Below, piece by piece: positions 32,947-36,946 of a stretch of 36,946 nucleotides of DNA. A program made the translations under genes and the position numbers. The stretch is from Roseomonas sp. (GTDB lineage: Bacteria; Pseudomonadota; Alphaproteobacteria; Acetobacterales; Acetobacteraceae). The stretch lies in the NCBI GenBank assembly GCA_020249865.1, contig JADCEV010000150.1:1-36946 (forward strand), written 5' to 3'. The notes under the pieces are model-generated. The model saw nothing but the letters and a program-made list of their open reading frames with translations, was not told the origin of the DNA and did no database searches. Within the stretch, counting starts at the first letter, position 1. Every line of letters begins with the position of its first letter.

Positions 32947-33059
32947 GGTCTGAACCCCCGCTTTCGCGGTCAGGCTAGGCGCAAAAGGCGGGATTGTCTT
33001 GAGGGCTTGCCCCGGCGCGCGCCCGGTGGCACCCCTTGGCAGGAGAGGGAGGCGGCGCA
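32947..33059. promoter_or_regulatory. Divergent intergenic region between two SDR-led operons
   Basis: These 113 bases separate the two catabolic units and must hold both promoters. A ribosome binding site for the rightward operon is visible (33041-33052). No convincing operator or -35/-10 pair was found, and no regulator gene adjoins it. Confidence 0.3.
33041..33052 (+). promoter_or_regulatory. Ribosome binding site deciding the GTG start of the rightward SDR gene
   Basis: AGGAGAGGGAGG ends seven bases before the GTG at 33060. It favours that start over the in-frame TTG at 33036, which lies upstream of this site. Confidence 0.65.
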
Positions 33060-33827
33060 GTGGATATTGCTGGGATATTCTCGTTGCAGGGGCGCGTGGC
33101 GCTGGTGACTGGTGCGTCCGGCGTTTTGGGCGCTCATTTCGCACGGGTTTTGCATGGCGCTGGGGCTTCCGTGGCCTTGGCTGCGCGGCGCGAAGCTGCG
33201 ACTGGGACATTGGCCGCCGAATTGGGGGTGCGCGCCGTATCCGTCCCCTTGGATGTGACAGCGCCCGAGACCATTGCGCCCGCCTTTGCTGCCGCGGAAG
33301 CCGCCTTTGCTGCGCCCTGCGACATTCTGGTGAATAATGCCGGCATCGCCGTAACCAAGCCTGCCTTGCAACAAAGCGCGGAAGATTGGGATTCCGTCCT
33401 GGATGTGAATCTGCGCGGTTGCTTTCTGGTGGCGCAGGAAGCCGCCAAGCGCCTGGTGGAAGCGAAGCGTCCGGGCGTGGTGGTGAATATTGCCTCCGTC
33501 CTTGGGGAGCGCATCATTCCGGGTGTGGTTGGCTATACCGCCGCCAAGGCCGGGCTATTGCACATGACGCGCCATTTGGCGGTGGAATGGGCGCGGCATG
33601 GCATTCGGGTGAATGCGATTGCGCCTGGCTATATCGCCACCGATATCAATCGTGAGTTCTTCGCCTCCGATGCTGGGCAGGCGATGATCAAACGCATCCC
33701 GCAGCGCCGGCTTGGCGCTGCCGAGGACCTTACCGGGCCGCTTTTGCTGCTCGCTTCCGATGCCGGGGCGTATATGACCGGCGCGGTGGTGACCGTGGAT
33801 GGCGGCCATTCGATCAACCCGCTTTAG
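33060..33827 (+). CDS. SDR family oxidoreductase (first gene of the 4-hydroxyacid-like operon)
   Basis: 255 residues from GTG at 33060. Classical SDR motifs: TGASGVLG (17-24), NNAG (92-95), catalytic Ser146 in NIASVLG, YTAAK (Tyr159, Lys163), PGYIATDI and C-terminal VTVDGGHSI. The next gene, an ACAD10/11-like acyl-CoA dehydrogenase, starts 12 bases after its stop. In the Pseudomonas putida levulinate operon an SDR (LvaD) reduces the 4-keto group of levulinyl-CoA to the 4-hydroxy acyl-CoA; this gene may do the same or a 3-hydroxyacyl-CoA oxidation. That role is inferred from gene content, the SDR family itself is certain. Confidence 0.92.
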   Translation: MDIAGIFSLQGRVALVTGASGVLGAHFARVLHGAGASVALAARREAATGTLAAELGVRAVSVPLDVTAPETIAPAFAAAEAAFAAPCDILVNNAGIAVTKPALQQSAEDWDSVLDVNLRGCFLVAQEAAKRLVEAKRPGVVVNIASVLGERIIPGVVGYTAAKAGLLHMTRHLAVEWARHGIRVNAIAPGYIATDINREFFASDAGQAMIKRIPQRRLGAAEDLTGPLLLLASDAGAYMTGAVVTVDGGHSINPL

Positions 33828-33838
33828 GTATTGGTGTC

Positions 33839-35050
33839 ATGGAATTTTCTCTGCCCCCCGAAATTGACGATATGCGCCGACGCATCCGCCGCTTTGTGGA
33901 TGAAAAACTGATCCCGCTGGAAGCGGACCGCGCGAATTTCGATGAGCATGAAAACATCGCGCCGCATGTGCTGGCGGAAATGCGCAAGGCCGCCAAGGCG
34001 GAAGGGCTTTGGGCGCTGCAAATGCCGAAGCGCTTGGGGGGCCAGGAATTGCCGCGCATTGGCATGGCCGCCTGTTATGAGGAAATGAACAGGTCCATCT
34101 TCGGGCCGGTGGTGTTCAATAGCGCCGCGCCGGATGACGGCAATATGATGATCCTGGATCGGGTTTTGCCCGAAGCGATGAAGCCGCGTTGGTTGCACCC
34201 GATTGTGAATGGCGATGTGCAATCCGCCTTCGCCATGACGGAACCGGATGGCTGCGGTTCAGACCCGAACTTGACCTATACCAAGGCAGAACGCGTCGGC
34301 AATGATCGCTGGCGCATCACCGGGCGCAAATGGTTCATCACCGGCGCCGGCAATGCCAAGATTTTCATCATCATCGCGCGTACATCCGATGACCCGCGCA
34401 AGGGGCTTTCGGCCTTTCTGTTCAGCGCTGATCAACCGGGTTGGAAGATCGTGCGCCGCATCCCGATCATGGGGCCGGAAGAACATGGCGGGCATTGCGA
34501 ATTGGAATTCGACGGGTTGGAAATCCCGAATGAGCATTTGTTGATGGGCGAAGGCGATGGGCTGAAGCTCACGCAAATGCGCCTTGGGGTGGCGCGGCTG
34601 ACGCATTGCATGCGCTGGCTGGGCTTGTCTCGGCGTGCTTTGGAAATTGCCATGGAACGCATCGGCCAGCGTGATTCCTTCGGCATGAAGCTGATTGACC
34701 GCGAAAGCGTGCAGGGGCTGGTTGGCCAGGCGGCGATGGAAATCGAGATTGGCCGGCTGCTGACCATGAAGGCGGCCTGGGTGCTGGACCAGGGAGGCTT
34801 CGCGCGAAAGGAAGTTTCCATGGCGAAGATCGTGGTCGCGGATGCCTTGCAGAAATCTGTGGATACGGCGCTGCAATTGCTGGGTGCGCGCGGCTATTCC
34901 AAGGATACGGTGATTGAATGGATGTATCGCTATGCCCGCCAGGCACGGCTGGTGGATGGCGCATCCGAAGTGCATCGCATGGTGCTGGCCAATACCTTGC
35001 GGGCGGAGGGTTCTGGATTCTTCGCCTGGGGTCCGCCCAAGCATGGATGA
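33839..35050 (+). CDS. Acyl-CoA dehydrogenase family protein, ACAD10/11-like (LvaC-type candidate)
   Basis: 403 residues with the three ACAD domains. The N-terminal helical part is followed by the first family signature FAMTEPDGCGSD (131-142), and KWFITGAGNAKIFIIIART in the beta domain; the C-terminal helices hold RESVQGLVGQAAMEIE and LGARGYSKDT. In typical acyl-CoA dehydrogenases the catalytic base is the Glu of the E-G-T/A motif near the C-terminus. Here the corresponding stretch is VDGASEVHR with Asp373. ACAD10/11 relatives have DGPDEVH at this place. Such enzymes, with the kinase encoded next, convert 4-phospho-acyl-CoA to a 3-hydroxyacyl-CoA in the lva pathway. The reaction here is inferred. 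It overlaps the kinase gene by eight bases. Confidence 0.92.
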   Translation: MEFSLPPEIDDMRRRIRRFVDEKLIPLEADRANFDEHENIAPHVLAEMRKAAKAEGLWALQMPKRLGGQELPRIGMAACYEEMNRSIFGPVVFNSAAPDDGNMMILDRVLPEAMKPRWLHPIVNGDVQSAFAMTEPDGCGSDPNLTYTKAERVGNDRWRITGRKWFITGAGNAKIFIIIARTSDDPRKGLSAFLFSADQPGWKIVRRIPIMGPEEHGGHCELEFDGLEIPNEHLLMGEGDGLKLTQMRLGVARLTHCMRWLGLSRRALEIAMERIGQRDSFGMKLIDRESVQGLVGQAAMEIEIGRLLTMKAAWVLDQGGFARKEVSMAKIVVADALQKSVDTALQLLGARGYSKDTVIEWMYRYARQARLVDGASEVHRMVLANTLRAEGSGFFAWGPPKHG

Positions 35051-36050
35051 GGCGCGGCGCGCAAAACTGACGGATTGGCTGCGCGGGGCGACCGGCGCGG
35101 CTGATCTTGAACTTGGCGCCATGGCCTTGCTTTCCGGCGGTGCCATTCAGCAGAATTGGGCCTTGGATGTGAAGCATGCCGGGCGTGATGAAGCCTGGGT
35201 GCTGCGCACCGATAATGCTGCGACCTTGGCAGTTTCCCTGCCGCGTACAGCGGAATTCGCGCTGTTGAAAGCGGCCTTTGGCGCCGGCGTGACAGTGCCG
35301 GAACCGCTTTATCTGTGTGAGGATACCGGCATTCTGGGCGCGCCGTTTTTCATCATGCGTCGTGTACAGGGCATTGCCGCTGGGCACCGCGTGGTGAAAA
35401 GCGAAACGCTTTGCGGTGGGCGGGATTCAGCGGTGCAAGCACTTGGGCGCGAATTGGCGCGCATTCATCGAATCACGCCGCCGCGAGCGGAGTTGGCGTT
35501 TTTGGGCGCGCCGGCGGATGATGCTTGCCTAGCTTTCGTGGCGGAACAACGCCGCGCGCTGGACCGGCAGGCGCTGCCGCGCCCTATCCTGGAATGGGGC
35601 TTGCGGCATTTGGAACGCACCGCGCCACCGCCCTTGCCGCCCGTGCTGAACCATAATGATTTCCGCACCGGCAATCTGATGCTGGCTGAAGCGGGCGTGA
35701 CGGCGGTGTTGGATTGGGAATTCGCTGCCTGGGGCGAACCGCATGCGGACCTCGGCTGGTTCTGCGCCAAATGCTGGCGCTTCGGCAGCGCTTTTGAGGC
35801 AGGCGGCATTGGTACGCGAGAAGCTTTCTATGCCGGCTATGCCGCGGAGGCCGGCCATGCGGTGGATGCGGCGCGCGTGACCTGGTGGGAATTGGCCGCG
35901 CATATCCGCTGGGCCGTGATTGCGATTGATCAGGCGGAACGGCATTTGTCCGGCAAGGAAACCAGCCTGGAACTGGCGCTCACGGGCCATATTGTGCCGG
36001 AGCTTGAATGGGAAATCCTGAACATGACGGGGGTGCCCGATGCAGCGTGA
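35043..36050 (+). CDS. APH-fold phosphotransferase, candidate 4-hydroxyacyl-CoA kinase (LvaA/ACAD10-11 kinase type)
   Basis: 335 residues of the aminoglycoside phosphotransferase/choline kinase family. It shows LLSGGAIQQNWAL (29-41) as nucleotide-binding loop, VLRTD (53-57, Arg in place of the usual Lys region), the catalytic loop NHNDFRTGNLML (203-214) with Asp206 and Asn211, and the metal Asp224 in VLDWEFAAWGEPHADLGW. The family includes antibiotic kinases, but this context (ACAD, DUF6285-like, acyl-CoA synthetase) matches the metabolic kinase LvaA and the kinase domain fused to mammalian ACAD10/11. It should not be called a resistance gene. The ATG overlaps the acyl-CoA dehydrogenase end by eight bases; the 3' end overlaps the next gene by eleven. 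Confidence 0.92.
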   Translation: MDEARRAKLTDWLRGATGAADLELGAMALLSGGAIQQNWALDVKHAGRDEAWVLRTDNAATLAVSLPRTAEFALLKAAFGAGVTVPEPLYLCEDTGILGAPFFIMRRVQGIAAGHRVVKSETLCGGRDSAVQALGRELARIHRITPPRAELAFLGAPADDACLAFVAEQRRALDRQALPRPILEWGLRHLERTAPPPLPPVLNHNDFRTGNLMLAEAGVTAVLDWEFAAWGEPHADLGWFCAKCWRFGSAFEAGGIGTREAFYAGYAAEAGHAVDAARVTWWELAAHIRWAVIAIDQAERHLSGKETSLELALTGHIVPELEWEILNMTGVPDAA

Positions 36051-36399
36051 AGCCCCGGAAGGGCCGGGACTGCTGGCAACCGCCCGTGATGCGTTGTTGC
36101 AGGAGATCCTGCCGAAGCTTTCCGGCACGGATGCCTTCACTGCGCGCATGATCGCCAATGCCATGGCGATTGCGGCGCGAGAGGCGGCGCAGGATGAGGC
36201 TTGGGTCACTGCAACGCGCGCTGCCATGCAGCGCCTGACGGGCGCGACTGACGCACCGGATCGTGCCCTTGCTGCTGCTATTCGCGCGGGCGCCTTTGAT
36301 CCAGGCAACGCGCATCACGCGGAAGTGGCAGAAATGTTGCGCAATGCGGCGCGGATGCGTTGCGCCATCAGCGCGCCACGGGTTTTGGGAAAGGGCTGA
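36040..36399 (+). CDS. Small DUF6285-like protein, candidate kinase partner (LvaB type)
   Basis: 119 residues, all helical by composition, with no signal or membrane segment. Readable parts are LLATARDALLQEILPKLSG (11-29), FTARMIANAMAIAAREA (33-49) and the C-terminal EVAEMLRNAARMRCAISAP. This matches the small protein usually encoded behind APH-type kinases of acyl-CoA operons (DUF6285 as I recall it; not checked). In P. putida the equivalent small protein LvaB is needed with LvaA for phosphorylation of the 4-hydroxyacyl-CoA. Overlap of eleven bases with the kinase gene indicates coupled translation and a stoichiometric partner. Function here is inferred from position. Confidence 0.8.
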   Translation: MQREAPEGPGLLATARDALLQEILPKLSGTDAFTARMIANAMAIAAREAAQDEAWVTATRAAMQRLTGATDAPDRALAAAIRAGAFDPGNAHHAEVAEMLRNAARMRCAISAPRVLGKG

Positions 36400-36402
36400 A
36401 GC

Positions 36403-36946
36403 ATGCAGGATGATTTGCCGAAAACCGCCGCCAATCATGTGGCGCTTTCGCCGGTTTCCTTCCTGCCGCGTGCGGCGCATATCTGGGGCAAGCGTATCGC
36501 CATCATTCATGGCGCGCGGCGCATCACCTATGCGCAGTTTCTGGAACGCAGCCGGCGCCTGGCATCCGCCTTGCGCGATGCTGGGATTGCGCCGGGTGAT
36601 GTGGTGGCAGCACTTTTGCCGAATATCCCGGAAATGCTGGAGGCGCATAATGGCGTGCCGATGGCGCATGCCGTGCTGTGCCCCATCAATACGCGGCTGG
36701 ATGCGGCAACAGTACGCTTCATTCTGGGCCATTCCGGCGCAAAAATCCTGCTGCTGGACCGTGAATTTGCCGCGCTGACGCATGCAGCCTTGGAAGGGAT
36801 GGAAAACCCACCGAGCGTCATCATTATTGATGATCCCGAAGGCCCGGGTGGTGCAGCGATTGACGCAATGCCTTATGAGGAATTCATCGCCGGCGGTGAT
36901 CCCACCTTTTCTGTGACGCCACCATCAGATGAATGGGCGGCCATTA
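36403..36946 (+). CDS. Acyl-CoA synthetase (AMP-forming), N-terminal part cut by window end
   Basis: The frame is open from the ATG at 36403 to the window end, about 181 residues. It reads as the N-terminal domain of an ANL-superfamily ligase: SPVSFLPRAAHIWGKRIAI (residues 16-34), RITYAQFLERSRRLASALRD, IAPGDVVAALLPNIPEMLEA, LCPINTRLDAATVRFILGHSGAKILLLD and a final SDEWAAI, the segment that directly precedes the P-loop motif (YTSGTTGxPK) in related enzymes. The P-loop and A8 motif lie beyond the window. It activates a carboxylic acid to its CoA thioester and fits LvaE as the first step of the operon's pathway. It follows the small gene by three bases. Confidence 0.9.
   Translation, partial: MQDDLPKTAANHVALSPVSFLPRAAHIWGKRIAIIHGARRITYAQFLERSRRLASALRDAGIAPGDVVAALLPNIPEMLEAHNGVPMAHAVLCPINTRLDAATVRFILGHSGAKILLLDREFAALTHAALEGMENPPSVIIIDDPEGPGGAAIDAMPYEEFIAGGDPTFSVTPPSDEWAAI

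Follow-up and report, generated by a model that had tools for sequence, protein, structure and literature searches.

The window considered here is a whole contig of 36,946 nucleotides from Roseomonas sp. (JADCEV010000150.1; contig C58 of a 154-contig genome). Its right-hand end carries a catabolic operon that is quite likely to bring a 4-hydroxy acid, or else its 4-keto acid or gamma-lactone precursor, into beta-oxidation by the chemistry of the levulinate (lva) operon of Pseudomonas putida. Support for this came from homology, operon structure, active-site residues and conservation. Its substrate is probably not levulinate itself but some other 4-hydroxy or 4-keto acid, or a gamma-lactone; the operon would represent known chemistry in a sister lineage of lva, probably directed at a different acid. 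The lva and acyl-CoA dehydrogenase (ACAD) comparisons draw on excerpts of PMC12440821, PMC11342911, PMC6692424 and PMC9398171. An earlier note on this DNA had described five genes on one strand with short gaps or overlaps, and this was confirmed by the open reading frames (ORFs) and by Pfam, which named all five:

33060..33827, + strand: short-chain dehydrogenase/reductase (SDR) oxidoreductase, LvaD-like; 255 aa from GTG at 33060; Pfam adh_short_C2
33839..35050, + strand: ACAD; 403 aa, ATG start; Pfam Acyl-CoA_dh N, M and C-terminal domains
35043..36050, + strand: APH-fold kinase, LvaA-type; 335 aa, ATG start; Pfam APH
36040..36399, + strand: small DUF6285 protein at the LvaB position; 119 aa, ATG start; Pfam DUF6285
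36403..36946 (contig end), + strand: acyl-CoA synthetase of the PRK08162 type (5' part), LvaE-like; ATG start; Pfam AMP-binding

The SDR and ACAD genes were separated by 11 bases, the kinase overlapped the ACAD by 8 bases and was itself overlapped by DUF6285 for 11 bases, and the synthetase began after a gap of 3 bases. The DUF6285 assignment scored 70.3 bits against a Pfam cut-off of 28.1, and the SDR had an alternative in-frame start (TTG) at 33036. A scan for promoters and terminators returned nothing above shuffled sequences.

In a tree of 94 ACAD rows, the bootstrap of which was not fully settled, the window protein fell in a clade of 46 rows (100/100) that was sister to an 11-row LvaC clade including Thermus pTT27 (98/92); both stood beside a 14-row ACAD11 clade (100/99), and all 71 rows were joined at 99/94. 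Four residues of the window ACAD (R248, H256, R259 and D373, the last being catalytic) aligned with R626, H634, R637 and D753 of ACAD11, whose roles in the 4-phosphoacyl-CoA site and in catalysis are described in the excerpted PMC12440821. These four were invariant throughout the window clade (46/46), the LvaC clade (11/11) and the ACAD11 clade (14/14). Among the other 23 rows, Glu, Gly, Ala or a gap occupied the catalytic place, judged from the four commonest residues per group, and most of the phosphate-site set was missing. The dehydrogenase was therefore not a member of an unrelated ACAD clade, since it was sister to LvaC and possessed all four phosphoacyl-site residues. Nor was it a member of the LvaC clade itself, which was ruled out both by the tree and by a gap in score: the subfamily was present in 16 of 398 genomes of the phylum (its own included) at 656 bits or more, while the next match reached 385 bits. 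Membership of the ACAD11 clade was likewise rejected, its 14 rows excluding the window protein. Close to the catalytic Asp, the subfamily differed from LvaC at positions that were nearly fixed (A369 for F, V372 for Y and A375 for P), with further near-fixed differences at F88, D100 and Y353.

The kinase carried the motif HNDFRTGN, placing D206 and N211 at the positions of D220 and N225 in ACAD11, and it was the only match to itself in the genome at E 0.001. It was conserved but patchy, being found in 32 of 150 genomes of the family (its own included) at E 1e-30 or better. A tree of 142 distinct kinases, made by a quick method and containing some long branches, divided into an LvaA-type side of 112 and an ACAD11 side of 30 (quick-method support 97); the window kinase lay on the former, in a set of 92 rows together with the lva reference (support 95 on the same scale), and was thus not part of an unrelated APH clade. 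Two kinases on the ACAD11 side, L173 and L190 (locus labels are given as L), were nearer to 9o56 than to ACAD11. Identity was 46% to the lva kinase and 25% to that of ACAD11. By sequence profile, the window kinase scored 88 bits with the ACAD11 kinase, 87 with 3dxp, 84 with 9o56 and 59.5 with 9fsg, the 25-hydroxy steroid kinase of Sterolibacterium denitrificans; the last was not the closest relative by profile, and it was not among the rows of the kinase tree. An antibiotic-resistance APH was ruled out, the NCBIfam APH models scoring far below their cut-offs. The comparison with mammalian ACAD10/11 drawn in the earlier note was therefore more apt for the dehydrogenase than for the kinase. The logic of phosphorylation followed by elimination would be common to both systems, and the ACAD11 key residues all have equivalents in the window; however, ACAD10 and ACAD11 are fused kinase-ACAD proteins, whereas the window genes are separate ORFs, and the ACAD11-side kinases, on the opposite side of the tree, were without DUF6285 in all 30 cases.

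This association of DUF6285 with one kinase lineage is new here and is the most useful lead of the analysis. The DUF6285 gene was the only match to that family in the genome. Among loci fetched by their ACAD (L091–L218), DUF6285 accompanied 49 of 49 LvaA-type kinases (44 adjacent, 5 in the same ORF), with two further LvaA-type loci cut by contig ends and left outside this count, and none of 28 ACAD11-side kinases. After dereplication at 60%, this set comprised 22 LvaA-type and 11 ACAD11-side kinases, so that independent events were fewer than 49 and 28. An earlier and cruder distance rule had left 13 of 112 LvaA-type kinases without DUF6285. In the biased sample of loci retrieved through their kinase or their DUF6285, the domain occurred with 58 of 61 LvaA-type and 0 of 2 ACAD11-side kinases; since L291 and L295 displayed an in-frame match, L085 was the only remaining exception. 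In four of the 16 genomes with the ACAD subfamily (G537, G161, G374 and G283), the kinase at the locus was of the ACAD11 side and no DUF6285 match occurred anywhere in the genome. The ACAD subfamily stood beside an ACAD11-type kinase, DUF6285 being absent, at L114, L115, L124 and L135 (Bordetella, Achromobacter) and also at L153, L155, L163, L168 and L170, in what appeared to be a kinase swap.

Natural fusion of kinase and DUF6285 was confirmed by Pfam in L197. A model of another fusion, L169, had a mean pLDDT of 89.6 and a pTM of 0.88, with a low-confidence linker and no interface score; its best structural match was 9fsg (TM 0.59 by query length). DUF6285 was modelled alone as an all-helical protein (mean pLDDT 92.1), for which a fold search of the PDB gave no match (best E 2.3) and a profile search gave no functional hint (best E 0.22). 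One word search for 'DUF6285' in the literature library used found no paper. A tblastn search of plasmids with the window DUF6285 also found nothing, and was evidently too insensitive, since the plasmid records L215 and L216 annotate DUF6285 next to such kinases. The distribution suggests that DUF6285 is the standing partner of the LvaA-type kinase, and it would be a required subunit of that enzyme. The link, together with the natural fusions, offers a route to a direct test of the role of LvaB, which is reported to be required in P. putida (excerpts of PMC6692424).

For comparison with lva itself, the P. putida operon was represented by three stand-in loci, L172, L272 and L279. L172 possessed a divergent PrpR-type sigma-54 regulator and the order kinase-DUF6285-ACAD-SDR-synthetase, followed by AraC-type regulators and not by DUF485 and SSF genes; L272 and L279 had the whole lva set including both of these, and so equalled the content of lvaR and lvaABCDEFG listed in the excerpts of PMC6692424. 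L284 and similar loci matched the P. citronellolis cluster outlined in the same excerpts (histidine phosphatase, DUF485, a 548-residue SSF and ALAD). Between L172 and the P. citronellolis-type loci (L280–L287 and L289, where found), identities were 53–58% for the kinase, 77–79% for the ACAD, 63–70% for the SDR and 50–52% for the regulator; the published values for KT2440 against P. citronellolis, as excerpted from PMC6692424, are 59, 78, 67 and 52 respectively. DUF6285 occupied the lvaB position in L272, and LvaB would correspond to a DUF6285 protein, because the L172 identities parallel the published ones. A DUF6285 ORF was also observed between the kinase and the histidine phosphatase of the P. 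citronellolis-type cluster in L284 (8350–8724). For strain LA18T, the excerpts of PMC6692424 report no lvaB homologue, and one belonging to the P. citronellolis-type cluster may have been overlooked there.

All five window proteins aligned with their counterparts in the lva-type set, at identities to L172 and L272 of 50% (SDR), 40–42% (ACAD), 46–47% (kinase) and 37–41% (DUF6285); the synthetase gave the highest value, 61%, when that of relative L094 was compared with L272. Searches of the window's genome with L172 proteins returned the window SDR as the best match (231 bits, against 162 for the next) and likewise the window ACAD (272 against 211). The five enzyme parts, an LvaA-type kinase with DUF6285 and an LvaE-like synthetase are therefore common to both operons, and the key residues of the LvaC-like ACAD are identical to those of the window. 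The earlier note had also recognized that the gene order differs, and this held: the window reads SDR-ACAD-kinase-DUF6285-synthetase (D-C-A-B-E), in contrast to the lva order given above for L172. The lva operon further includes a PrpR-type regulator, DUF485 and an SSF transporter, none of which was seen at the window operon. The proposed match in content stood for all five parts and for the predicted chemistry, with the corrections that the ACAD lies outside the LvaC clade and that the operon is longer.

The operon did not end with five genes, as had first been supposed. Sequence past position 36946 was obtained from a small contig, C89 (L039), which carried the rest of the synthetase gene (its 3' part), followed by a CaiB-type coenzyme A (CoA) transferase and then an ACAD. 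Two relatives with an ACAD 98% identical to that of the window, L092 and L094, maintained this order through both synthetase pieces, which were 18 bases apart, into CaiB and ACAD. Translation of the L094 synthetase gave an intact protein of 536 residues, and Pfam identified its downstream genes as CaiB, ACAD-alpha, ACAD-beta and enoyl-CoA hydratase; the ORFs downstream in L092 matched this extension in place and size. An operon stopping at the synthetase was ruled out by these additional genes, and in close relatives it continues, unlike lva, into CaiB, an ACAD pair and a hydratase. The edge of C89 reads GTTCDPKG where L094 has GTTGDPKG, which is probably an assembly-end error.

In the proposed pathway, the synthetase, or the CaiB transferase in the longer operon, would make the CoA thioester, and a 4-keto group would be reduced to 4-hydroxy by the SDR. 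ATP-dependent phosphorylation of the 4-hydroxyl would fall to the kinase and its DUF6285 partner, after which the ACAD would eliminate phosphate without net oxidation to give a 2-enoyl-CoA; the hydratase and ordinary beta-oxidation would then complete the breakdown. The kinase and elimination steps have been demonstrated by others for LvaA/LvaC and ACAD10/11, and the window proteins would perform equivalent steps in this order.

Conservation of the arrangement was assessed among 103 dereplicated loci with the ACAD subfamily, 87 of which had enough flank. On the ACAD strand of these 87, the SDR was found just upstream in 65, the kinase in 70, DUF6285 in 53 and the synthetase in 38; the kinase figure was raised by L071–L090 having been chosen by kinase. 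All four were present in 23 loci. The recurrence of these same-strand genes indicates that the arrangement is not due to chance, and the kinase lay next to the ACAD in Alpha-, Beta- and Gammaproteobacteria as well as Myxococcota. These counts were based on tblastn and hidden Markov model matches because a gene caller that used codon-position GC missed genes in some loci; neighbour clusters came from such a caller, may be incomplete, and had Pfam run on cluster representatives only. Of the 103 loci, seven had a branched-chain-type ABC transporter (binding protein and permease) downstream (L122 in Salinisphaera; L128, L139 and L147 in Marinobacter; L143 in Pollutimonas; L191 and L192), nine had TctC receptors, seven had thiolase-like genes and four had alpha/beta hydrolases. 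A relative on a Sulfitobacter plasmid had a BktB thiolase, a TRAP transporter and an alpha/beta hydrolase. Such neighbours are consistent with import of a carboxylic acid or lactone that ends in beta-oxidation, without naming the substrate.

Several observations weigh against this interpretation. The best single match to the L172 synthetase in the genome was a paralogue on C66 (584 bits), although the operon's own synthetase exceeded this once its two contig pieces were summed (525 + 172 = 697 bits). In 17 of the 87 loci no kinase was detected in the vicinity of the ACAD, and the pathway there would need an unlinked one. The L172 ACAD was 37% identical to mouse ACAD11, which conflicts with the identities of LvaC to ACAD10 (62%) and ACAD11 (56%) in the excerpts of PMC11342911. 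No gene of LvaR, LvaF or LvaG type was present in the flanks, that is, the 5.2 kb upstream and the downstream ORFs of L094, where alone such genes were sought, an unlinked regulator or transporter not having been searched for; the earlier note had likewise seen no lvaR-type regulator or transporter nearby. Finally, the differences from LvaC in the catalytic loop suggest a different acyl chain, and because of them the acid may not be that of LvaC. The caution in the earlier note that the substrate might differ from levulinate still holds. Overall, its lva reading was supported in large part.

A narrower possibility is that this is the levulinate pathway itself, with only its gene order and control changed; being a sub-case of the 4-hydroxy acid reading, its probability overlaps with that reading, and it is rather unlikely. 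It would be favoured by the presence of all five lva parts, by the synthetase, the most lva-like of the five at 61%, and by lvaABCD homologues in Alpha-, Beta- and Gammaproteobacteria (Rand et al., as cited in the excerpts of PMC6692424). However, it must contend with an ACAD that belongs to a clade of its own and differs consistently in the residues surrounding the catalytic Asp, with the lack of LvaR, LvaF and LvaG in the flanks examined, and with relatives whose transporters differ (TRAP and branched-chain-type ABC); the hydratase and the extra ACAD pair of the extension would also seem superfluous for C5 levulinate. Less probable still is that a different hydroxyl is the target of kinase and ACAD, such as a tertiary alcohol on an isoprenoid or steroid side chain. 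The 25-hydroxy steroid kinase, which shares the fold and acts on a steroid side-chain alcohol (PMC8449060, in excerpt), was the best structural match of the modelled fusion (9fsg, TM 0.59 by query length), and the extension of L092 and L094 (CaiB, ACAD-alpha, ACAD-beta and hydratase) would be in keeping with a longer or branched acid. But by profile the ACAD11 kinase outscored it (88 against 59.5 bits), the ACAD retained the full 4-phosphoacyl-CoA residue set, and the synthetase was LvaE-like. It is highly improbable, and was already disfavoured, that the operon serves ordinary beta-oxidation of fatty acids and harbours an unrelated APH-family kinase as a passenger: SDR, ACAD, synthetase, CaiB and hydratase are indeed common catabolic parts, but kinase and ACAD were neighbours across three proteobacterial classes and Myxococcota, and the catalytic Asp was found in 71 of 71 rows of the three clades and printed for none of the 23 others.

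Under the favoured 4-hydroxy acid reading, a more specific model can be put forward tentatively, as one falling a little short of probable: a second 4-hydroxyacyl-CoA pathway, existing in parallel and acting on a substrate of its own, in which the ACAD pairs either with a DUF6285-dependent LvaA-type kinase or with a partner-free ACAD11-type kinase, the former being completed by DUF6285 as its substrate-binding or activating subunit. If true, this pathway would span Alpha-, Beta- and Gammaproteobacteria and Myxococcota. The chemistry of lva and ACAD10/11 has been assayed on few substrates so far, and the existence of a sister clade that is widespread, keeps its operon and differs in the residues next to the catalytic Asp suggests that some natural 4-hydroxy acids or lactones are still unassigned.

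A different group of ACAD adjoined LvaA-type kinases at L270, L271, L291–L295, L303, L304, L307 and L308, with DUF6285 either separate or in the kinase frame. In this group all four phosphoacyl-site residues were absent and Glu replaced Asp (5/5 tree rows), and it possibly belongs to another kinase-dependent pathway. A histidine phosphatase recurred beside kinase-ACAD clusters (L215:10475–11128, L284:7641–8357 and L118:15011–15736), including that of Thermus pTT27. Upstream of the operon in the window, the minus strand between 27834 and 32945 held a divergent block comprising an SDR, cytochrome c, a 2-hydroxyacid dehydrogenase, an MFS gene and GGT; three members of the block (the SDR, dehydrogenase and MFS genes) also adjoined the operon in the close relatives L071, L091, L092, L094 and L095.

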